DNA of 41,205 bases from Desulfobulbaceae bacterium. GTDB lineage: Bacteria; Desulfobacterota; Desulfobulbia; Desulfobulbales; Desulfobulbaceae. The stretch lies in NCBI GenBank assembly GCA_012744275.1, contig JAAYIE010000045.1, forward strand, positions 1 to 41,205. Reading direction: 5' to 3'. Shown piece after piece: positions 1,603 to 12,434 of this stretch. The translations under genes were made by a program, and so were the position numbers. Every line of letters begins with the position of its first letter. Within the stretch, counting starts at the first letter, position 1. The notes under the pieces are model-generated. The model saw only the letters and a list, made by a program, of their open reading frames with translations, had not been told where the DNA came from and searched no databases.

Positions 1603-4188
1603 ATGGTAGTAGGAGCACTGTTCAAACACTGGTCGTTGCGTGTTCTGGCTCCGGATACGGTGCTCAGGCGCACCTACGACGCCTTCAAGGAACTGCTCAG
1701 ATTCGATATCCAATGCCATGAGCTCATGGCTGAGTTCGAGGAGTTGTACTATCAGGGTAAAAGGGAAGATTTTGCCGCCATCCGTGTACGTTACAACAAG
1801 TTAAGTGCAGGCGTACAGGCAATGCTGATCGCCCTGGAACGTATGCAGCCCGGCCGTACCGGCACTTTGCGCGAATACTACATCAAGTACGATTTCTATG
1901 CGCGCATGCTGCTGGAACCACCCGAGCGCTTCCTAACCCCTCCCTATGTAGTTGATCATGAAGAACTACACGAGGTGAACCTGATTGGCAACAAGAGCCA
2001 CAGTCTGTTGCGAATCAGGCAGGCGCAACAGGCAGAGGTACCTGCAGGTTTTACCATCACGATTTCTGCTGCAGCCATGCTGATGGCACACAATCAGCTC
2101 AGGCCTGCGGTGGATTTGTTGCTCGCCCGCATGGATATCAGCTCCCGCGCAAGTGTGGAAACATCTTCCAGTGCACTCATGACCCTGGTGCGCAGCATGG
2201 AAATACCGGCAGCACTTGGTGAGGCGGTTATCGAGGAATATGACCGCTTGGCTGCTAATTTTCCCGAGGATGCCCCGCCCTTGGTTGCGGTGCGATCATC
2301 CGCCATGCAGGAAGATGGTCGTCACAGCTTTGCCGGGCAGTACCACTCCGCCCTGGCGGTGGAACGGGATGGTATTCTCGACGCCTACCTGGAAGTGCTT
2401 GCTTCAAAATATACACCCGAGGCCCTCCTGTACCGCATCCACACAGGCCTGGCCGATGAGGAGACTGACATGGCGGTGCTGGTGCTGGCCATGGTCGATG
2501 CCGCGGCAAGTGGGGTTGCCTATAGCCGCGTTACCACCACAGACAAGGCAGACGGTGCGGACGAGCAGTTGCTGGTGCAAAGTGTATATGGATTGGGGAT
2601 GCCGCTGGTGCAGGGTGAAGTGCTCCCGGATCGCTTTGTTTTTGCTCCTCCGGAAAAAGAAGAACCCATTAGCGTACAAAGCGGTAGCCAGGAGCAGAGG
2701 CTGATTATGCATCGGCAGGGTCTGCAAATGGAAGCTGTTCCAGATACAGACCTTAATAAAACCGCGATCAGCATCAAAGAGGCTGCCCAGGTGGCAGCCC
2801 AGACGAGGCTTTTGGAAGAGGCCTTCGGTGAGGCACAAGATGTGGAATGGGTGCTGGATAAGCAGCGTTTTCTCCATATCGTGCAATCCCGGCCTCTGCA
2901 GCGCTGGGAAAAGGTGACGCAAGATGTGTCGGCTGTCTCTGCCGCTCAAAACCCGGCGGCTGTGCTTCAGATTGAGCCCCTTCTCGCTGGTGCAACTCCT
3001 GCCTCAAGCGGTGCCTGTCAGGGCGTGGTTTGCCATGTGGAAGAACTGGATAATCTGGATGCGGGGGCCGGGCGTATTTTGGTAAGTCAACAAATACCAC
3101 CCTCGCTGGTGCGCTATCTGGACAGGTTGAGTGGAGTTGTCTGTGAGCGCGGTGCCACCACCGGTCATTTTGCCACAGTCTGCCGCGAATTTGGCGTGGT
3201 GCTGCTGGTGGATGCGGCTAGCGCCATGGGCATCCTGCCCTCTGGTATGCAGGTGACTGTGGATGGTTATGCTGGTGCGGTGTACCCTGGAATTGTTACT
3301 GAACTGCTGTATACCAGAGGACAGCACGATGCGCGGGATTCTGCTTATCATAAAAAAATTCGTGCACTGTTAAACTATATAACTCCACTGAACCTGACCG
3401 ATCCGGATTCCACCGATTTCAGGCCACAGTCCTGTAAATCCCTGCATGACCTCATCCGCTACAGCCACGAGACTGCAGTGCGTACTATGTTTGGCTTGGG
3501 TGAAATTGCCTCGGGTGCCTCAGCGCGTAGTCGAAAACTAAAAAGCAGTCTGCCGGTAGACGTATACCTGCTCGATGTGGGCGGCGCCTTTGCCGCACAT
3601 GCCCCAGGAGAAGGCGCCCTGACCCTTGAAGAACTCGATTGCCGTCCCTTTGTCTCCTTCTGGCAGGGGCTTTCTCATCCGAAAATTGACTGGGATTCGC
3701 ATGTGCATTTTGACTGGAAGGGGTTTGCTGATGTGTCGCTTGCCGATGGCTTAACCACTGGTGGCAGCAAGGATTTCGCCTCCTACGCGGTAATGAGTGC
3801 CGACTATGTGAATCTCAACATGCGTTTTGGCTTTCATTTCACCCTGGTAGATTGCTTGTGTGGAGCAGACAAGCGCGCCAATTATTGCCAGCTGCGTTTC
3901 GCCGGCGGTGGCGGTGACTATGCAGGCCGTTCGGTACGCATCGACCTTTTGGAGCGCATCCTGACGAAGTTAGGCTTTGTGGTGCGCATCAAGAGTGATT
4001 TGCTCGATGCCCGGGTTGATGGTTTCAATGTGAGTGATTTGAGTGTTTTGTTGGTAGAGCTGGGCCGTTTGCTCGGTATGACCAAGCAGTTGGACATGGT
4101 AGTGCAAGAGGGCGATGTGCAAGCCCATGTTGATCAGTTCTTTGCCGGGGCAGGGCGTTTTGTCTCCCCGCACAGCCACGCAGGTTGA
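1603..4188 (+). CDS. PEP synthase/PPDK-like dikinase with a non-canonical C-terminal domain
   Basis: This 861-residue protein resembles pyruvate, water dikinase / pyruvate phosphate dikinase over its middle only. After a helical N-terminal region (1-120), an ATP-grasp nucleotide-binding domain spans about 125-435. It has a diverged glycine/lysine loop (NLIGNKSHSLL), the AVRSSAMQED segment at about 229 and VEWVLDKQRF..QSRPL at its end. A swivelling phosphohistidine domain follows at about 455-565 with GATTGHFATVCREFG, putting the phospho-acceptor at His522. The C-terminal ~300 residues do not show the motifs of the PEP/pyruvate TIM barrel. They contain instead DFASYAVMSADYVNLN, a Cys pair in DCLCGADKR, and FAGGGGDY. 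The protein can therefore plausibly phosphorylate His522 from ATP, but its final acceptor is unknown. It sits between thiL (1-nt gap) and a phosphatase gene (4-nt gap). Confidence 0.85.
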   Translation: MVVGALFKHWSLRVLAPDTVLRRTYDAFKELLRFDIQCHELMAEFEELYYQGKREDFAAIRVRYNKLSAGVQAMLIALERMQPGRTGTLREYYIKYDFYARMLLEPPERFLTPPYVVDHEELHEVNLIGNKSHSLLRIRQAQQAEVPAGFTITISAAAMLMAHNQLRPAVDLLLARMDISSRASVETSSSALMTLVRSMEIPAALGEAVIEEYDRLAANFPEDAPPLVAVRSSAMQEDGRHSFAGQYHSALAVERDGILDAYLEVLASKYTPEALLYRIHTGLADEETDMAVLVLAMVDAAASGVAYSRVTTTDKADGADEQLLVQSVYGLGMPLVQGEVLPDRFVFAPPEKEEPISVQSGSQEQRLIMHRQGLQMEAVPDTDLNKTAISIKEAAQVAAQTRLLEEAFGEAQDVEWVLDKQRFLHIVQSRPLQRWEKVTQDVSAVSAAQNPAAVLQIEPLLAGATPASSGACQGVVCHVEELDNLDAGAGRILVSQQIPPSLVRYLDRLSGVVCERGATTGHFATVCREFGVVLLVDAASAMGILPSGMQVTVDGYAGAVYPGIVTELLYTRGQHDARDSAYHKKIRALLNYITPLNLTDPDSTDFRPQSCKSLHDLIRYSHETAVRTMFGLGEIASGASARSRKLKSSLPVDVYLLDVGGAFAAHAPGEGALTLEELDCRPFVSFWQGLSHPKIDWDSHVHFDWKGFADVSLADGLTTGGSKDFASYAVMSADYVNLNMRFGFHFTLVDCLCGADKRANYCQLRFAGGGGDYAGRSVRIDLLERILTKLGFVVRIKSDLLDARVDGFNVSDLSVLLVELGRLLGMTKQLDMVVQEGDVQAHVDQFFAGAGRFVSPHSHAG

Positions 4189-4192
4189 CATC

Positions 4193-5302
4193 ATGTACGA
4201 ACTTCACTGGATAACCAGCCACCTGGCCACCGGCCACGCTCCCATGTCGTATGCCCACCTTGACGACATACGCGCCCAGGGTATCAGTGCCATCATCAAC
4301 CTCTGCGACGAGTTCTGCGATCTGCACGAAATTGAGGAGACATCGGGTTTTGATGTTTTCTATCTGCCCATACCCGATGAATGCGCGCCCGACAAGGCTA
4401 CCATGGAGCAGGGGCTTGACTGGCTGGATGAGGCCATTTATCTGAACAAAAAGGTGCTGGTGCACTGTCGCATGGGCCATGGCCGCACCGGTACCTTTAT
4501 TGCCGCCTACCTAATGAGACGCGGTTTTGATTTCAAGGGCGCGCAAAAGGCCATGAAGGGGCGTAACGCTAATCCGGCCACCTTTGCCCAGCGCCGCTTT
4601 CTGAAGAAATACGGCAAGGAAGAAGGGGTATTGAAGGTTTCTGCGCCAAGAATTGACAGCCGCCGCGGTGACAGCACTGATACCGCAGTTATTGCCGAGT
4701 TCAGCCAGGTGCTGGAGCATTATGATCAGCTGGTCCTGGGCAGGCCGCTCGGGGCCGAAACCATGCCGGAATTCTCCTGCTGCAGTCAGCCATTTTATCT
4801 GTATTTGGTGGAAAGCATGCATCTCAGCCAGGAGTTGAACCGTTTGCTCCGCCTGCAAAAGCGTCAGGAGGTTATCAACAGGGCACTTGCACTCAGTGCG
4901 ACCATGAAGACCCTGGGAATGCAGCCCCCAACACAGGCAACCAGCACATCTCCAGTGGTTGATCCTGCTGCCACTGGAGATGTGGCTACAGTAGAGCTTG
5001 TTTGCCCGCTGTGGGAAAACGGTTATTGCTTGGCGGCGGAAATGCGGCCTCTTCGCTGTCGCTACTGGGGCAAAGAATTGAGCGATGCTCTGCAGTACGC
5101 CCTGATAGAAGACGCCATCGTGCTTTCCCGCAAGGTTTTTATCATGCTGACCGGTAAGGCACAGCTTAGCGATGGACTGCGGTTTTCCTTGGCTGATACA
5201 GTTACCGGCAAGTATGTGCAGCTCTCTTTTCAAACCCTGACTGCGAAAAGACGGGCAGACAATGCGAAGGCTGCGGGCACGGAAGAGCAGGGCGAAGAAT
5301 GA
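4193..5302 (+). CDS. Dual-specificity phosphatase fused to a YkgJ-like cysteine cluster
   Basis: The N-terminal ~145 residues are a Cys-based dual-specificity/tyrosine phosphatase. The P-loop HCRMGHGRTGT places the nucleophile at Cys92 and the phosphate-binding Arg at 98, and Asp62 in PIPDECAPD is a plausible general acid. After a charged linker, residues 190-295 carry a Cys pattern: CC at 196-197, then Cys271, Cys279 and Cys289 in CPLWENGYCLAAEMRPLRC. This resembles the second half of the YkgJ Zn/Fe-chelating cluster (C-P-L..C..RP..CR). The remainder has no recognised motif. The longer frame from 4115 would overlap the upstream gene, so ATG 4193, four bases after that stop, is used (369 residues). 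Its stop overlaps the next start (ATGA). Context suggests it dephosphorylates a product of the neighbouring dikinase-like protein, but this is inference. Confidence 0.85.
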   Translation: MYELHWITSHLATGHAPMSYAHLDDIRAQGISAIINLCDEFCDLHEIEETSGFDVFYLPIPDECAPDKATMEQGLDWLDEAIYLNKKVLVHCRMGHGRTGTFIAAYLMRRGFDFKGAQKAMKGRNANPATFAQRRFLKKYGKEEGVLKVSAPRIDSRRGDSTDTAVIAEFSQVLEHYDQLVLGRPLGAETMPEFSCCSQPFYLYLVESMHLSQELNRLLRLQKRQEVINRALALSATMKTLGMQPPTQATSTSPVVDPAATGDVATVELVCPLWENGYCLAAEMRPLRCRYWGKELSDALQYALIEDAIVLSRKVFIMLTGKAQLSDGLRFSLADTVTGKYVQLSFQTLTAKRRADNAKAAGTEEQGEE

Positions 5303-6738
5303 CAGGAGAAAACAGGCCGACAGCAATGGAGGGCGCACGCAGGCTCCTTATTGTAGATGATGATGAAGACATGCTCAAGCTACTTGCCAAAATGCTGGGC
5401 AAGCACTGCCAATGCGAAACCATGCTTGCCAACTCCGCTGACGAGGCCCTGGCTCTGCTCGAACATACGCCTCCGGCCGTGGTGCTGAGCGATATTCGCA
5501 TGCCGGGGATGGATGGGCTTCGTTTCTTCGAGCAGATCAACCACCATGTTCCGGCCATTACCACCATCCTCATGAGTGGTTACGGCACCATTGAAATGGC
5601 GGTGCAGGTACTGAAAAAAGGTGCCTATGATTTTATAGAAAAACCCTTTGATCGCGACCGCATTACCCAAACTGTCAGTCGTGCCCTGGAACGAACCAGG
5701 CTTATGCGGGAAAACGAGCGTCTGCAGCAGATGCTGCACGGCCAGAAAGTTGCGGTGCACGGGTTTATCGGTTCTTCTGCTGCCCTGCGCAGAACACTGG
5801 CACGATTGGGGCGGGTGGCGGCCAGTGATGTGACCGTACTTATCCGGGGTGAATCCGGAACCGGAAAGGAATTGGCAGCCCACGCCCTGCATGCCATGTC
5901 TGCGCGGGCGCATAACCCCATGATCACGGTCAACTGTCCGGCCCTGCCCGAAGCCATTTTGGAAAGCGAGCTATTCGGTTACCGGCGCGGTGCATTTACC
6001 GGTGCAAACCAGGATAAGCGCGGACTTTTCCAGGAAGCGGACGGCTCGACCATACTGCTCGACGAGATTGCTGATATTCCTGTAAGTGTGCAAACCAAGC
6101 TTTTACGGGTATTGCAGGAAAAAGAGATCAGGCCGCTTGGACAAAACAAAACCGTGCAGGTGGACGTACGGGTGCTGGCCTCTACCAATCAGGATCTGGA
6201 GGCAAAGATGCAGGTCGGGCAGTTCCGGGAAGATCTGTATCACCGGCTCAATGTAATGTCTATTACCATGCCCACCCTCGAACAGATGGCCTCTGACATC
6301 ATTCCGCTTGCCCAGGCCTTCCTTGAAAAATTTCGTGAAGAGAGCGACAGGGATCAACTCGAATTTTCGACTGTTGCGCTATCTTATCTAATGCGGCGCA
6401 AATGGCCGGGCAATGTGCGGGAATTGCGCAATGCTGTGCAGCGGGCGGTTTTGCTCTGTGAAGGCAATGAAATTGGCTGTAACGATTTTTTTGATGACGA
6501 AGGCGGCGAGTGCCTGGAGCCATTAACTGCTGCCCCAACCGTCTGGAACGACTCCATGGGCTACAAGGAAGCCAAGGAGCAGGCCTTGGCTCATTTCCAC
6601 GACAATTATTTGTCGGCCATCCTCCGCGAACATCAAGGTAATATCACCCATGCAGCGAGGGCTAGCGGTCTTGACCGACAGGCCCTACAGCGTCTTCTGC
6701 GCCGCTACGGCGTTCAGAGTAGCACTTTCCGTTCATAA
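5299..6738 (+). CDS. Sigma-54-dependent response regulator (NtrC/GlrR type)
   Basis: The 479 residues form the three-part layout of an enhancer-binding protein. The receiver domain (about 14-130) has acidic residues in LLIVDDDED, phospho-acceptor Asp65 in VVLSDIRMPG, and Lys115. The AAA+ domain (about 155-385) has Walker A GESGTGKE at 184-191, the sigma-54 contact loop GAFTGA at 231-236, Walker B ILLDEIA at 252-258 and an arginine-finger region. The C-terminal Fis-type helix-turn-helix is at about 435-475. With GAFTGA intact it should activate sigma-54 RNA polymerase. The start overlaps the phosphatase stop, so it is translationally coupled to that operon. No histidine kinase gene is adjacent in the operon. 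A sigma-54 promoter candidate lies about 160 bases downstream and is a plausible target. Confidence 0.93.
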   Translation: MTGENRPTAMEGARRLLIVDDDEDMLKLLAKMLGKHCQCETMLANSADEALALLEHTPPAVVLSDIRMPGMDGLRFFEQINHHVPAITTILMSGYGTIEMAVQVLKKGAYDFIEKPFDRDRITQTVSRALERTRLMRENERLQQMLHGQKVAVHGFIGSSAALRRTLARLGRVAASDVTVLIRGESGTGKELAAHALHAMSARAHNPMITVNCPALPEAILESELFGYRRGAFTGANQDKRGLFQEADGSTILLDEIADIPVSVQTKLLRVLQEKEIRPLGQNKTVQVDVRVLASTNQDLEAKMQVGQFREDLYHRLNVMSITMPTLEQMASDIIPLAQAFLEKFREESDRDQLEFSTVALSYLMRRKWPGNVRELRNAVQRAVLLCEGNEIGCNDFFDDEGGECLEPLTAAPTVWNDSMGYKEAKEQALAHFHDNYLSAILREHQGNITHAARASGLDRQALQRLLRRYGVQSSTFRS

Positions 6739-7073: not shown

Positions 7074-7445
7074 ATGGCAGAGATACTAGCTTTGGACGAT
7101 GTGCAGGATGCTTCGATTCTAGTGGGTAAAATCCTCAAAAAAAAAGGGCACACAGTACACACCTTCACCGATGAGGACGAGGCTATTGCGCATGCGCGCA
7201 CACAACCGGTGGACCTGGCCATTTTGGACATCAAGCTCAAACGAATGAGTGGTATCGAGGTGCTTGCATTACTCAAGGAAATAAACCCTGCCATGCGGGC
7301 CATCATGCTTACCGGCTATCCCACCATGGAAACGGCCCGCGAAGCCATGGGTTTAGGAGCGGATGAGTACTGCGTCAAGCCCATTGATCGTGCTGAATTG
7401 GAAGAAAAGGTAGAAAAGGTGTTGGCTCTGGCCAAGGCTGGTTGA
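7074..7445 (+). CDS. Single-domain response regulator
   Basis: This 123-residue CheY-like receiver has no output domain. The acidic pair is in LALDDVQD, the phospho-acceptor is Asp52 (LAILDIKL), the conserved Thr is in IMLTGYP and the Lys is in YCVKPID, so phosphotransfer chemistry looks intact. It probably relays phosphate to or from a partner, or acts by protein contact. GGGAGGA upstream supports the start. The sensor gene begins ten bases after its stop, so the two form one transcription unit, possibly driven by the sigma-54 promoter candidate upstream. The output is unknown. Confidence 0.9.
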   Translation: MAEILALDDVQDASILVGKILKKKGHTVHTFTDEDEAIAHARTQPVDLAILDIKLKRMSGIEVLALLKEINPAMRAIMLTGYPTMETAREAMGLGADEYCVKPIDRAELEEKVEKVLALAKAG

Positions 7446-7454
7446 GGGGGGCGC

Positions 7455-9158
7455 ATGGGCACAGGCGCAAAAACAAAGCAAAATCGGGATATGAGCTGCC
7501 AAGTGGCGCGCTCAGACCGTTTTCTGGATATTCTCCAGCAAACCATTGCCATGACCTCCAGCGTGCTGGATCACCAGGAGGTGATGGAGACCGTGGTGCA
7601 CGAATTACCCGGTCTGCTCAATGCCGATGCCTGCACCATCCGCCTGCTGGACGAATCGACCCGAAGTTTTGTTCTGGGGGCGGCGCACGGGGTGTCCTTG
7701 GAATATCTTACCCGGGAAAGCATCGATACCGAGCAGACCATGCAGATGGTGCAGGCCGGTTATCCGGTATACACAGACCATATCGACGAAGATCAACTTC
7801 TGCCCTTTCATGATGCCGCCAAGCGTGAAGGCATCAAAGCGGTGCTGTCTTTGCCCATCCTTTTTCAGGACCAGGTTATCGGTATCATGCGGTTGTTGAC
7901 CAAAAGTGCAGCCAGGCTGTTTACCCCCGAGGAAATATCCAGGGCCATGGCCTTGGCAATGCAGGTGGGCATTGCCATTGCCCACGGCCGCATGTTTAAG
8001 GAGCAGCAGACTCAGCTCAATTTTCTGCGGGAGTTGCAGGTTTTTTCCCGTCTGGTCAACTCTTCGCTGGACCTCGATGAAACCCTCGCTGCCATGGCCA
8101 GGCGAGCCGTTGAGAGCTTGCAGGTAAAGGGGTGCACCCTGCGCCTGGTAGATCCAACCACCAACCGTTTATATCTGGCCGCATCCCATGGGCTTTCCGA
8201 AAGCTATCTGCACCGGGGTGAGGTTGCCAGTGAACGCGGGATTCAACTGGTGCTTGCAGGCGAGCCTGTGGCCATCTATGATGCAGTCCATGATGAACGG
8301 GTTGATTACGCCGAACAGATGCAGGCAGAGGGTATTGTCTCCCTGTTGGCTGTGCCCCTGCGGGTGCAGGGCGAGATTATCGGCGTTATGCGGGTACTCT
8401 CCAGTACACCGAGAATTTTTACCGATGCCGAAATCCGCTTTGCCTCGACCTTGGCGGAAGTGGGCGGCACTGCCATTCATAACGCCAGAAATTACCAGAA
8501 AATCAGCAATCTGCTTATTCGAATCGAAGGGCATGAGACGTTTCTCGCTAACATCATAGATAGTTTGCAGCACCAGCTCATAGTCTTTAATCAGGATCGT
8601 CGGGTCGTTTTGGCCAACAGACAGTTTCTTGCGGCAATCAACCGAGTGGAAGATGAGGTGATTGGTTTGCATTATTCGGAATTGTGCCGTGATGAAGACG
8701 CCTGTCCGGTCAATCTGGTTTTTGACGGCCTGACCCCTCAAATAATGACCGAGGAGCAGCCCGGTACCAGCGGGAGCAGTTGGTTTGAGCGCAGCGCGTC
8801 CCCCATTGTTGGAGATAACGGCGAGATTGAGTATGTAATTGAAATAATTAGAAATATAACGATTGAGCGCAGGCTGTCTGAAGTGGAGGTGGAACAGGGC
8901 AGGTTGAGCGGAATCGTAGAATTGGCGGGCACGGTCGCCCACGAGATCAATAGCCCGCTCTTTGCGGCTCTGGGCACTGCAGAACTCTTGGCCGAAGATG
9001 AAGAAAGCAGTGGTATTGCGGAAGAATTGCAGGTGGTTATTCGTAACTTGCGACGTATCAGTGAGCTGACCAAGAAGATGACCACTATGACCGGTTTTGA
9101 ACGCAAGCAATATGTGGGTGAAAGCACGGTGCTTTCCCTGGAAGATGATACACAGTAA
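7455..9158 (+). CDS. GAF-GAF-PAS sensor with DHp domain but no ATPase domain
   Basis: The 567-residue protein has no membrane segments. Two GAF domains are visible as repeats of the same layout at about 25-190 and 205-365; both end in a VIGIMRLL / IIGVMRVL strand followed by FTPEE / FTDAE. A PAS-like domain follows (about 375-470), then a HisKA-type helix at about 480-545 with AGTVAHEINSPLFAALG, putting the phospho-acceptor at His496. The protein stops about 70 residues later. The N, G1, F and G2 boxes of the HATPase_c domain are absent, and none is encoded downstream before 9340. It may be phosphorylated in trans or act as a phosphotransfer partner for the receiver encoded just upstream. GAGGGGGG precedes the start. 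Confidence 0.85.
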   Translation: MGTGAKTKQNRDMSCQVARSDRFLDILQQTIAMTSSVLDHQEVMETVVHELPGLLNADACTIRLLDESTRSFVLGAAHGVSLEYLTRESIDTEQTMQMVQAGYPVYTDHIDEDQLLPFHDAAKREGIKAVLSLPILFQDQVIGIMRLLTKSAARLFTPEEISRAMALAMQVGIAIAHGRMFKEQQTQLNFLRELQVFSRLVNSSLDLDETLAAMARRAVESLQVKGCTLRLVDPTTNRLYLAASHGLSESYLHRGEVASERGIQLVLAGEPVAIYDAVHDERVDYAEQMQAEGIVSLLAVPLRVQGEIIGVMRVLSSTPRIFTDAEIRFASTLAEVGGTAIHNARNYQKISNLLIRIEGHETFLANIIDSLQHQLIVFNQDRRVVLANRQFLAAINRVEDEVIGLHYSELCRDEDACPVNLVFDGLTPQIMTEEQPGTSGSSWFERSASPIVGDNGEIEYVIEIIRNITIERRLSEVEVEQGRLSGIVELAGTVAHEINSPLFAALGTAELLAEDEESSGIAEELQVVIRNLRRISELTKKMTTMTGFERKQYVGESTVLSLEDDTQ

Positions 9159-9241: not shown

Positions 9242-9339
9242 AGCGTGCATTGTATGTGCCCGCTTTGTTAATGTGTTTTTTAAACTGCCGGTGCAGTACA
9301 GCGCAGGCAATTTTTCACCAACAACCGAAGAGGTATCGC

Positions 9340-10626
9340 ATGAACAGCAAGGGTATGGGTAAATCCTGGATTTTTGCCGCTGCATTCCTGCTGGCCAGCG
9401 CTGGACTGGCCGTTGCTGCAGAAAATGCTCCGGCTCAACAGGCGGAAAGCGCAGCGCCAGCAGCTGCCGCAGTTGCAACCGAGGCTGTACAGGCAGAAGC
9501 TGTAGCCGCAGCGTCTGGTCCGGTCTCCATTGAATTTGACGGCAATGCCACCATCAACAATGGCGGCACCATCAAGGTGAAGGGTAAAGCTCCGGCCGGT
9601 CAACCGGTCTTTTTGGAAGTCTGGGCAGAAGGCCATGATGTGCGCGCCAACCGTTTTGACAAAGATCCGGATCCCAAAACCGGTGTGCGGCCCTACATTT
9701 TTTATCTGACCGAGCACATGCCGGCCTATTTTAAAATCTTTGCTCCCACCACCATGCAAGACAAGATCGATGCCGAGAAAAAGAAGGGCGGCAAGTGGAG
9801 CATGTCCAATATTATCAAGGAACTCGGTGCAGATGCTGCGTATAATGCTCCTGCCGAAGCCCCGATCAAGGCGTATAAGAGTTCATTTATCGCCAGCATT
9901 ATCGGCAGCCGTGGCGAACTGCTCTCCGATGCTCCGGACAGGCGTCGCTCCATGCAGTTGACCAAGGCTCGCTTCCGTGACCTTGACAAGGTGGTTGCAG
10001 CCCAGGTGAATGTTGCTGCTGACGGCAACTTTACTGCCGAAATTCCAATGCGTAAAGGTATTGCACCAGGCGAATATCAGATCGTTGCCCATGTGGATAA
10101 AGCGACCAAAAGCGCTCCAATTACGTTCACCAACCAGACCAATTTCCCCACTGTGTATCTGACCAACGCAGGTACCAGTATGAACTTGATCTATCCCTTC
10201 TTCCTGACCCTGGCGGTTACCATTTTTGGCGTGCTCATGGGCGCAGGCGGTGGGTTTATCCTCAACCCGCTCCTGGTAACCTTGTTTCCCATGCTGCCGC
10301 ACACCATCGTGGCGGGAACCGTGACTCCCACGGTACTTTTCTCCCAGGGTAGTGGTATCTATAACTATTCCAAGATAAAATTCATCAGCTGGAAGCTTGG
10401 CATCGGTATTGGTTTGGCCATGCTGGCCGGTGGTTTTATTGGCCCCAAACTAACGGAAATGATTACTCTGGCCCAGTTTAAATCCGCCTTTGGCTATATT
10501 CTACTGGTCTTGGCTGCTCTGATGTTCTGGCAGACCACCCCTGGTTACCTGGCAAAGAATAAAAAAGAGCAGGCCATCTTGAAGGAATTCAAGAAGCGTG
10601 CTGAGGAAGCAGCGGCTAATAAGTAA
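9340..10626 (+). CDS. TSUP (TauE/SafE) transporter, first half, with large periplasmic domain
   Basis: The product is 428 residues starting with a signal peptide (MNSKGMGKSWIFAAAF.., likely cleavage after AVA near residue 27). An Ala-rich linker and a periplasmic domain of about 220 residues follow (roughly 60-275). From about residue 280 there are four membrane segments typical of one TSUP repeat, with the signature GAGGGFILNPLL and GGFIGPK. A complete TSUP carrier has two such repeats; the second is encoded by the next gene. Substrates of the family include sulfite, sulfonates and other small organosulfur or carboxylate anions, so sulfite export is a reasonable guess in a sulfur metaboliser. 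ATG 9340, preceded by GAAGAGG, is preferred over the frame opening at 9250 because it starts the signal peptide. Confidence 0.82.
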   Translation: MNSKGMGKSWIFAAAFLLASAGLAVAAENAPAQQAESAAPAAAAVATEAVQAEAVAAASGPVSIEFDGNATINNGGTIKVKGKAPAGQPVFLEVWAEGHDVRANRFDKDPDPKTGVRPYIFYLTEHMPAYFKIFAPTTMQDKIDAEKKKGGKWSMSNIIKELGADAAYNAPAEAPIKAYKSSFIASIIGSRGELLSDAPDRRRSMQLTKARFRDLDKVVAAQVNVAADGNFTAEIPMRKGIAPGEYQIVAHVDKATKSAPITFTNQTNFPTVYLTNAGTSMNLIYPFFLTLAVTIFGVLMGAGGGFILNPLLVTLFPMLPHTIVAGTVTPTVLFSQGSGIYNYSKIKFISWKLGIGIGLAMLAGGFIGPKLTEMITLAQFKSAFGYILLVLAALMFWQTTPGYLAKNKKEQAILKEFKKRAEEAAANK

Positions 10627-10655
10627 GCAACTACTACCAGTAAGGAGATAATATA

Positions 10656-11045
10656 ATGAAAGTAGAATTCTGGGGACAGGAATTTAAGGTCAACATGTTT
10701 GTGGGCTGCCTTGGCGGCTTTCTCATCGCCATCATGTCGTCCATGTTCGGTTTTGGCGGCGGTCCCTTCATGGTGCCCCTGATGACGGTATTTCTGCGTC
10801 TACCCATGTACTTAGTGGTAGGCAGTTCGCTTCTGGCCATCTTCTTCAACACCTCCATGAGCACCATGCGGCACTACCAGTTCGGTAACTTCGACTGGAT
10901 ACTCTTCTGCGCCATGTTCCCGGCGGCACTGCTTGCCGGTTTCATTGGTCCGAAAATTGCGCAGAGGCTCAGCCCGATCGTGGTTAAGCGTGTAGCCTGC
11001 GTTGGTTTGATTATCTTGGCGTTGAGCCTGTTAGGCGTGTTTTGA
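10656..11045 (+). CDS. TSUP (TauE/SafE) transporter, second half
   Basis: This 129-residue membrane protein has four segments and the TSUP signature GFGGGPFMVPLM, followed by GFIGPKIAQRLS, mirroring the end of the preceding gene. It is only one repeat of the usual two-repeat carrier. AAGGAGAT lies eight bases upstream of the ATG and the gap from the previous stop is 29 bases, so this is a separately translated gene and not a frameshift product. The two products presumably assemble into one transporter. A strong terminator lies about 170 bases beyond the stop. Confidence 0.85.
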   Translation: MKVEFWGQEFKVNMFVGCLGGFLIAIMSSMFGFGGGPFMVPLMTVFLRLPMYLVVGSSLLAIFFNTSMSTMRHYQFGNFDWILFCAMFPAALLAGFIGPKIAQRLSPIVVKRVACVGLIILALSLLGVF

Positions 11046-11214: not shown

Positions 11215-11250
11215 ACAAAAAAACACCGGATTATTTCCGGTGTTTTTTTG
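11215..11250. terminator. Bidirectional rho-independent terminator
   Basis: A perfect 7-bp GC-rich stem (ACACCGG 11223-11229, CCGGTGT 11237-11243) with a 7-base loop is flanked by an A run on the left and a T run on the right. It therefore gives a U tract in both directions. It ends the TSUP operon on the + strand and could end a - strand gene whose 3' end would lie just to the right. Confidence 0.88.
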
Positions 11251-11356: not shown

Positions 11357-12434
11357 GGGGTGAATTCAACTTGCAAGCGCACCACGCAGTGCCTGGCAAA
11401 AAACTTCAGCAGGAGTCTGGTAGTGTAAACATTTGCGTGGTCGATTATTCAGTCGTTCTACTGCTTTCAAGAGCATCGCTTCCGTGATCTGATGAAAGCT
11501 GGTCACTCTTGGAAAATACTGTCGCAGCAGGCCATTGCCGTTCTCGTTGGACCACGCTGCCACGGCGAATAAGGACGGCAAAAATACGTGCTTATGCCGG
11601 TTGAGGCCTCCAGCCCTGTGAACCGGGCCATTTCAGAGCCATTATCAAGCGTCAAGCTCTGTCTCAGTTCTGCCGGAAGAGCGCGCAAACGTGGAATTAA
11701 CGCATCATTGAAGGAGGCGGCCGTCTTATCCTCAACCTTACCCAGCAACAGAAAACGGCTTTTGCGTTCGTTACAAGTGAGCAGCGCCGCTTTGCCTTGA
11801 GAAGCACAGACGAGATCTGCCTCCCAATCTCCAAACCGCGCTCTGTCGGCCACAATCTGCGGAGGATGGGCAATGTCAATACGCCCCGGAAAACGGCATC
11901 TGCCCCGGCCGTACCGGATCTGCCGCCTGCGTCGTCTGTGGCCGCGGCGCAAATGACGAAAGCTGGTGCCGCCAAACTGTGCAGCGACATAAATCCAGCG
12001 GTAGATCGTTTCCGTGCTGATGCGCATGTTTGTATCCTTTGGGTACTCCAGGCGCATACGTCCTGATATCTGTTCAGGCGACCAATCTCTGCGCAGCTTT
12101 TCATCAACATAAGTGATCAGCTCAGGCCGGTTCAAGCAGCGGTAATGGCGTGGTATCTTTCGTCTTTTACGGGCACGGCGATCAACAGTCTGAGCACGGT
12201 AGCCGCTTTTTGAGCTGTTGCGGTGCAGTTCCCTTAAAATGGTTGTATGGTTTCTCCCAATCTGCGTAGCGATTTCTCGGCAAGTCCTGCCCATATGCAC
12301 AAATAATTCGATAGCAACGCGTTCTTCCAGTGTAAGATGGGTATGGGACATGGCGGACTCCTTCTGGCTGGTTGGTGGTTGGCGCTTCCAACTCTGCCAG
12401 AATCCCGCTGTGTCCTATGAACTGTTTTCACCCC
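11357..12434 (-). mobile_element. IS30-family insertion sequence, degenerate
   Basis: A frameshifted IS30-type transposase gene is bounded by imperfect inverted ends: GGGGTGAATTCAACTTGCAAG (11357-11377) against the complement of 12414-12434, which shares GGGGTGAA and about 13 of 21 positions. The left end overlaps the transposase stop, as is common in this family. The exact outer ends and target duplication are not clear from this one copy. Confidence 0.7.
11366..12351 (-). pseudogene. IS30-family transposase, frameshifted
   Basis: Reading from 12351, the first 260 or so residues carry the N-terminal helix-turn-helix (LTLEERVAIELF.., CREIATQIGRNHTTILREL). They also carry the first two catalytic acidic sites of the DDE domain (FGDWEADLV and TLDNGSEM). 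After SPWQRG the frame is lost. The expected continuation, NENGNGLLRQYFPR with the catalytic Glu, is in a neighbouring frame that ends at 11366. Losing one base at about 11550 (GGTTCC to GGTCC on the coding strand) explains the change exactly. IS30 transposases are normally a single frame of about 320-340 residues, so this copy should be inactive. Confidence 0.85.

Follow-up and report, generated by a model that had tools for sequence, protein, structure and literature searches.

The window, by which we mean the whole stretch of 41,205 nucleotides analysed here, carries two adjacent forward-strand genes that each encode one repeat of a TSUP protein. The first gene (9340..10626, +; 428 aa from ATG to stop) encodes a signal peptide, a periplasmic domain, TSUP repeat 1 and a K-rich tail, and GAGG at 9330..9333 (+), read from the sequence, is a possible Shine-Dalgarno site for it. 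The second gene (10656..11045, +; 129 aa from ATG to stop) encodes TSUP repeat 2, with an FWGxEF motif at its start and GGGP at residue 34. An earlier note on this DNA had described a TSUP carrier split over two genes at exactly these coordinates, and profile searches agree with it: both products exceed the curated cut-off of PF01925 (32.6 bits), the first over residues 287-401 (profile positions 2-113, 60.9 bits) and the second over residues 15-125 (positions 128-237, 81.8 bits), so that each gene supplies one repeat with one glycine-rich signature. The second gene also has the good ribosome site of its own that had been read there, AGGAG at 10643..10647 (+), 8 nt upstream of its ATG. The source genome holds seven further TauE genes, matched by PF01925 at nearly full length.

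The N-terminus of the first protein has a basic start, a hydrophobic stretch at residues 7-30 and an AxA-like end, and was judged by eye to be a signal peptide of about residues 1-27 (9340..9420, +); the model has a helix at residues 6-19. After an Ala/Gln-rich stretch comes the periplasmic domain, residues 61-282 (9520..10185, +), which AlphaFold2 predicts to be an Ig-like beta-sandwich with a long insertion, with a block pLDDT mostly above 90. The signal peptide and the periplasmic domain of about 220 residues that had been claimed for the first half were thus recovered. Structure prediction, suggested at the time as a check, gave a confident fold but no significant relative, as the comparison of the domain model with the PDB by Foldseek returned no match at E≤0.001. 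VIA-align gave Z scores of up to 8.2 over about 94 residues with complement and macroglobulin domains, and of about 7-8 also with RbmA and antibody domains; Z values of about 7-8 are the level expected of a common arrangement. The domain might bind the substrate, as the earlier note proposed.

Repeat 1 (residues 283-398; 10186..10533, +), delimited from Pfam, the model and the sequence, has its GGGF at residue 303. It is followed by the K-rich tail (residues 399-428; 10534..10623, +), which aligns with the linker of fused homologues, contains 8 K/R and 4 D/E, and has a mean column conservation of 0.87 over 82 aligned first genes. For the second gene, the mean column identity is 77% over 78 aligned rows. 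The membrane half of the first protein was modelled with low confidence (block mean pLDDT 56-83) as six helical segments, one of them only 6 residues long, and the second protein, also with low confidence (overall pLDDT 65.8), as five. The description of one four-helix repeat per gene with GGGF and GGGP signatures therefore holds for the repeats and the signatures, and not for the helix count in these low-confidence models. The model of the second protein gave no Foldseek match in the PDB at E≤0.001 and a VIA-align Z of at most 6.0, and sequence queries of the PDB found no TSUP structure.

Upstream of the pair and on the same strand, Pfam identifies a GAF-GAF-PAS-HisKA kinase-like protein (7455..9158, +), a single-domain response regulator (7074..7445, +), a sigma-54 response regulator (5299..6738, +) and a dual-specificity phosphatase-like protein (4115..5302, +). 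These recur as neighbours of the split genes at other loci, at least 13, 17, 26 and 4 times, respectively, among 80 contig-derived loci, the counts being lower bounds given the simple longest-frame gene caller that was used. The phosphatase-like domain occupies the first part of a 395-aa protein that stands among two-component genes. Downstream, a hairpin followed by a T-run (11222..11249, +), noticed by eye, is a possible terminator; it is absent from the list of the terminator scan, which found 12 terminator-like sites against 5.1 expected and none at the end of the gene pair. Matches to the sigma-54 promoter pattern were not above chance (62 against 70 expected), and the sigma-70 pattern was at chance level (4 against 4.2). 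Just 3' of the carrier genes lies an open frame on the opposite strand (11503-12351, −), which we take to resemble an IS30-type transposase.

Relatives of the first gene were collected at 95 loci, 80 from genome contigs and 15 from a 198-genome sample of the window's phylum; some genomes may be in both samples, and the 95 loci are therefore not fully independent of one another. The nearest named relatives are Desulfobulbaceae (L039), from which the window's phylum was taken to be Desulfobacterota. A second gene of at least 120 aa lies directly downstream in 90 of them (the copy at L106 has no stop), and at the other five (L051, L053, L058, L071 and L114) the stored DNA stops short of it or breaks off within it. 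Across the 90 loci the intergenic gap has a median of 23 nt (range −11 to 150), the start codon of the second gene is ATG 87 times and GTG three times, a Shine-Dalgarno-like word precedes it in every case, and it occurs in each of the three possible frames with respect to the first gene (43/19/28). From these loci, 82 of the 95 first genes and 78 of the 90 second genes were taken into the alignments. The conserved pair in relatives of two phyla rules out a recent frameshift or an assembly error, as the earlier note had held in calling this a true split.

With the second gene as query, 11 of the 118 genomes searched in the window's phylum gave strong matches (E≤1e-55), which lie in open frames of 130-153 aa; among 148 genomes from the phylum to which the Nitrospira locus L062 belongs, 20 did so, the frames there measuring 131-231 aa. 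No fused frame occurred among the strong matches in these 118 and 148 genomes; close relatives with the halves fused and a recent stop at this locus were therefore not found. The two-gene TSUP is conserved in many sulfate-reducing and related bacteria, and the split is real and old. A literature search found no paper on split or half-size TSUPs.

One-chain carriers with open frames of 563-605 aa (L187-L194) were found in 8 of the 198 genomes of the window's phylum, a count from which two further partial matches were excluded. The five that were read consist of an N-terminal domain, repeat 1, a K-rich linker, an FWGxEF-like motif and repeat 2, and residues 61-426 of the first protein align to positions 35-415 of the fused profile (hhalign E 6e-16). 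The split point falls in the linker, where the split form is about 20 residues shorter than the fused form. The surroundings are also partly shared: three of the five fused loci read (G029, G105 and G088) have the molybdoenzyme and regulator genes of split loci alongside, G066 has only the sigma-54 regulator in common with them over the stretch read, and G070 has none of their partner genes. The order at G088, from the family of the window's organism, is response regulator, molybdoenzyme, FeS protein, GAF kinase, 149-aa protein and fused carrier, followed by a 211-aa protein, a kinase, the phosphatase also found in the window and a sigma-54 regulator. Over the part that was read, the genes of the split locus L059 follow the same sequence, except that two carrier genes replace one. 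Both forms together were found in none of the 198 genomes, which is not significant (p 1).

Other genes were observed beside fused carriers. Small membrane-like proteins (L179:6088-6720 and L176:5992-6618) are weakly EMC3/TMCO1-like, their scores of 19.7 and 17.8 bits lying below the cut-off of 27.1. Just 5' of the fused carrier in L175 (2799-3515) and L176 (8356-9078) is a gene that we would name as Rex-like, after the redox repressor; in Pfam, only the L176 copy showed the DNA-binding and CoA-binding domains.

The orientation of the two products was approached through the K+R bias, counted between the helices of the models, the loop borders being those of low-confidence models. The bias was −1.0 for the split first halves (range −2 to 0, n=17), with the K-rich tail left out, and +4.67 for the split second halves (range 4 to 7, n=18); the tail adds weight to the same side as the bias of the first half. 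For the fused carriers it was −0.76 in first halves (n=17) and +3.55 in second halves (n=29), the two differing with p 4e-7. Within the reach of these models, the counts suggest opposite orientations of the two gene products. A periplasmic domain before the first half and a K-rich linker after it fit an N-out/C-in first half and an N-in/C-out second half. For this arrangement each half would have to cross the membrane an odd number of times; the low-confidence models show five and six segments.

A PhsA/PsrA-like molybdoenzyme was found in the fetched flanks of at least 43 of the 80 split loci, and a DmsB-like FeS protein in those of at least 30. The enzyme can be called PhsA/PsrA-like only, from its sequence, given that the copy at L067 scored 541.8 bits against the PhsA equivalog NF012032, below the cut-off of 694; the best solved relative is 2vpw, named thiosulfate reductase (E 1e-103). 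No twin-arginine leader was visible in 15 enzyme N-termini, two of them from longer fused proteins, and the enzyme is therefore probably cytoplasmic. At E≤1e-150 it is present in 13 of 15 genomes with the split pair (G014 and G145 being the two without a match), in 7 of 8 with the fused carrier and in 27 of the 175 others in the 198-genome sample; the co-occurrence with either carrier form gives p 8e-12 by a statistic that ignores kinship. Within this sample the enzyme lies within 10 kb of 6 of 8 fused carriers, compared with only 3 of 15 split pairs. When the enzyme was taken as the starting point, 23 of its 51 places were at most 10 kb from a TSUP gene, one of these (G036:C54) being a half-size gene, in a count for which places were copied by hand and the chance rate is rough. 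The pair in the window has no molybdoenzyme beside it; the genome's best match, with 53% identity, is on another contig (C47). A further group of TSUPs of 385-482 aa (L132, L133, L135, L137, L139, L140, L142 and L144-L147) has its first repeat matched only in the second part, and 8 of these 11 are within 10 kb of the same molybdoenzyme family.

Mutants in a TauE-gene cluster of Desulfovibrio resist nitrate (Korte et al. 2014; PMC4001038), and the accessible text of that paper suggests a leaky thiosulfate transporter, partly on the strength of its unpublished growth data; rex mutants are likewise described there as nitrate-resistant. The linkage to the molybdoenzyme and this proposal make thiosulfate or a near relative our first guess at the substrate, which from gene context we would put at perhaps one in three.

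Our preferred reading, to which we assign a probability of about one half, is that the two genes encode a heterodimeric TSUP carrier, derived from an old fission, that moves a sulfur oxyanion for a PhsA-like molybdoenzyme under the control of the neighbouring two-component genes. The two products would be the subunits of one carrier. The first would enter the membrane by way of its signal peptide, leaving the Ig-like domain in the periplasm and the K-rich tail in the cytoplasm, and the second would be inserted the opposite way, with its start inside and its end outside. Their association would give a heterodimer with inverted repeats that rebuilds the two-repeat carrier. The pair would go back to a one-chain carrier in which part of the cytoplasmic linker was deleted and a stop, a Shine-Dalgarno site and a start appeared in that place. 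The cargo, thiosulfate or a relative, would supply the cytoplasmic enzyme, and the adjacent two-component genes would govern the system.

The direction of transport could be the reverse, and the pair might be an exporter that removes what the molybdoenzyme makes, sulfite or something else, and not an importer of the enzyme's substrate; we consider this doubtful. Sulfite is a useful electron acceptor within a sulfate reducer, and this general consideration argues against its export. The precedent for export is the TauE of Cupriavidus necator, a probable sulfite exporter according to the accessible parts of two papers (PMC5840216, PMC4287615).

The fission proposed in our preferred reading was examined with trees. 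The half-domain tree held 98 rows. Two possibly frameshifted or partial sequences (L166 and L168) were omitted from it, as were the first halves of 12 fused carriers that were only partial, and for L033 and L130 the first halves were taken by fixed residue ranges. Split first halves formed one clade (100/99), grouped with 9 of 17 fused first halves (96/92), while the other 8 fell outside this grouping. The split second halves, too, were a single clade (100/99), nested with 17 of the 29 fused second halves in a larger set (99/92) and adjoining those of the 565-aa carriers (92/69). In a second half-domain tree, made without the long rows L001, L003, L004 and L005 and with six near-copies removed, the grouping of split first halves with those of the 565-aa carriers had a support of only 61/71. 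The phylogeny of the halves against fused TSUPs that had been put forward as a check thus yielded firm split clades in a weakly resolved tree; a single clade of split first and second halves was not rejected by an AU test made with the halves only (p 0.27).

A two-repeat tree of 45 rows was made with both halves joined, 11 carriers of about 400 aa entering as second halves alone. In it the sister group of the split clade (100/99) consisted of L004 and the fused carriers of 400 and 565 aa, and all of these together (97/88) stood apart from 11 ordinary fused TSUPs, which alone rooted the tree, the named outgroup not being one side of any branch. Split pairs and 565-aa carriers as a clade of their own were weakly rejected (AU p 0.029). 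If these two do not form a clade, the periplasmic domain that they share must either have been lost from other lines or have been acquired by them independently.

The split most likely came after the internal duplication, to judge from three observations: each half matches its own half of PF01925, one-chain kin with the same periplasmic domain and linker exist, and fused carriers lie outside the split clade. The idea in the earlier note that such a split could show how the duplication arose is not supported by these observations. As far as the sequences tell, and with trees that are not decisive, the split looks like an old fission in the cytoplasmic linker and not a fossil of the duplication. 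A single fission on the split branch would be the shortest account of the two-repeat tree. The opposite direction, in which this clade began with the two-gene form and fusion later produced the one-chain forms of 565 and 400 aa, agrees with the sister position of the split clade to the linked fused forms and with the spread of split genes across two phyla; it is nevertheless unlikely, because the ordinary TSUPs outside, by which alone the tree is rooted, are fused as well, so that a split and a re-fusion, two changes against one, are needed.

It could also be that the pair is mainly a sensor that reports an anion to the adjoining kinases and transports little. Kinase and regulator genes do recur as neighbours, and a signalling role has been published for a YeeE-type sulfur importer, as far as the accessible part of that work goes (PMC11582611). 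The adjacent kinase, however, shows only GAF, PAS and HisKA domains in Pfam, and the co-occurrence with the molybdoenzyme is strong, which makes a mainly sensory function improbable. That the pair is instead an independent duplication of a half-size gene that never fused would sit with the AU result for the halves, but is very improbable given the opposite halves of PF01925 matched by the two genes, the placement of each split clade with fused halves of its own kind, and the linker and periplasmic domain common to the pair and the one-chain homologues.

Half-size TSUP genes do exist in this phylum. A half-size profile matched 19 of the 198 genomes at E≤1e-20, in frames of 103-170 aa except for the fused gene of G110; the match in G060 is possibly a full-length gene with a frameshift. 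Half-size genes, about 117-150 aa long, were noted at L024, L026, L028, L030, L032, L036-L038, L150, L157-L159 and L161-L165. When 11 genomes with a half-size gene were searched with PF01925, nine held just one, among them G145, which has the split pair as well, and G010 and G107 had further partial TSUP genes. Where the wider surroundings were read, for six half-size genes, the gene contexts were scattered and included no adjacent second half. At E≤1e-25 none was found in the 148 genomes of the phylum of L062, an empty result that is not evidence of absence. The mean K+R bias of the half-size proteins is 0.06 (range −1 to 4, n=17), different from that of fused second halves (p 3e-6) and not from that of fused first halves (p 0.31).

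The gene of G110 (L160; G110:C14:31434-32183) is a single frame with two TSUP halves that are 67% identical, have K+R biases of −3 and +2, and form a sister pair (100/96) inside the half-size clade. From its sequence, it appears to be a young internal duplication or a fusion of two half-size genes. The half-size TSUPs and this gene bear on the origin of internal duplications more than the split pair does. A bolder and more tentative idea, which we hold at somewhat less than even odds, is that one phylum keeps every stage of the route, with inverted repeats: unpaired half-size genes with hardly any charge bias, whose products would act as dual-topology homodimers, the young fusion of two such halves, whose biases (−3 and +2) have already moved apart, ordinary fused carriers, and a re-split heterodimer with fixed opposite orientation. 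Shlykov in 2012 reportedly described TSUP as a duplicated four-helix unit, and the staged route with inverted repeats, if true, conflicts with that picture.

For most TSUP proteins the substrate is a guess. A carrier that occurs naturally as two subunits of fixed orientation would offer a handle on the fold, the inverted repeats and the substrate, and its co-occurrence with a molybdoenzyme in sulfur-cycling bacteria leads to a concrete physiological hypothesis. The orientation and the substrate of the two-gene TSUP are open to test, whereas its value for the origin of the duplication is doubtful.

Among the systems closest to the pair are the one-chain TSUPs of 563-605 aa, which have the same domain order, linker and motif but are single genes, with about 24-39% identity in local blastp pieces. 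The TSUP/TauE-SafE family at large (PF01925; TCDB 2.A.102 according to the accessible part of PMC5840216) shares with it the GGG signatures and a sulfur-linked enzyme that is often nearby; the pair differs in its two chains and in the signal peptide and Ig-like domain of about 220 residues before repeat 1. The TauE genes of the Desulfovibrio nitrate cluster (DVU0251/Dde_0598), in the accessible text of PMC4001038, also adjoin two-component genes, with thiosulfate uptake suggested. This likeness is one of description and not of sequence, and DVU0251, at 963 bp, is long enough for one chain; DVU0251/DVU0250 had been considered as the same split and was dropped on the lengths given in that text, the second gene having 588 bp. 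Like the first gene, MamO and MamE of magnetotactic bacteria combine a TauE domain with an extra domain, which in their case is a protease domain, as described in the accessible part of PMC4287615. Finally, the UPF0016/GDT1 family, in the accessible text of PMC4067407, occurs as lone halves, as pairs of neighbouring genes and as two-domain proteins with opposite orientation. Its pairs resemble the TSUP pair in the opposite K+R bias of adjacent gene products and differ in belonging to another family with a presumed cation substrate, whereas the TSUP pair seems to be derived from a fused form.
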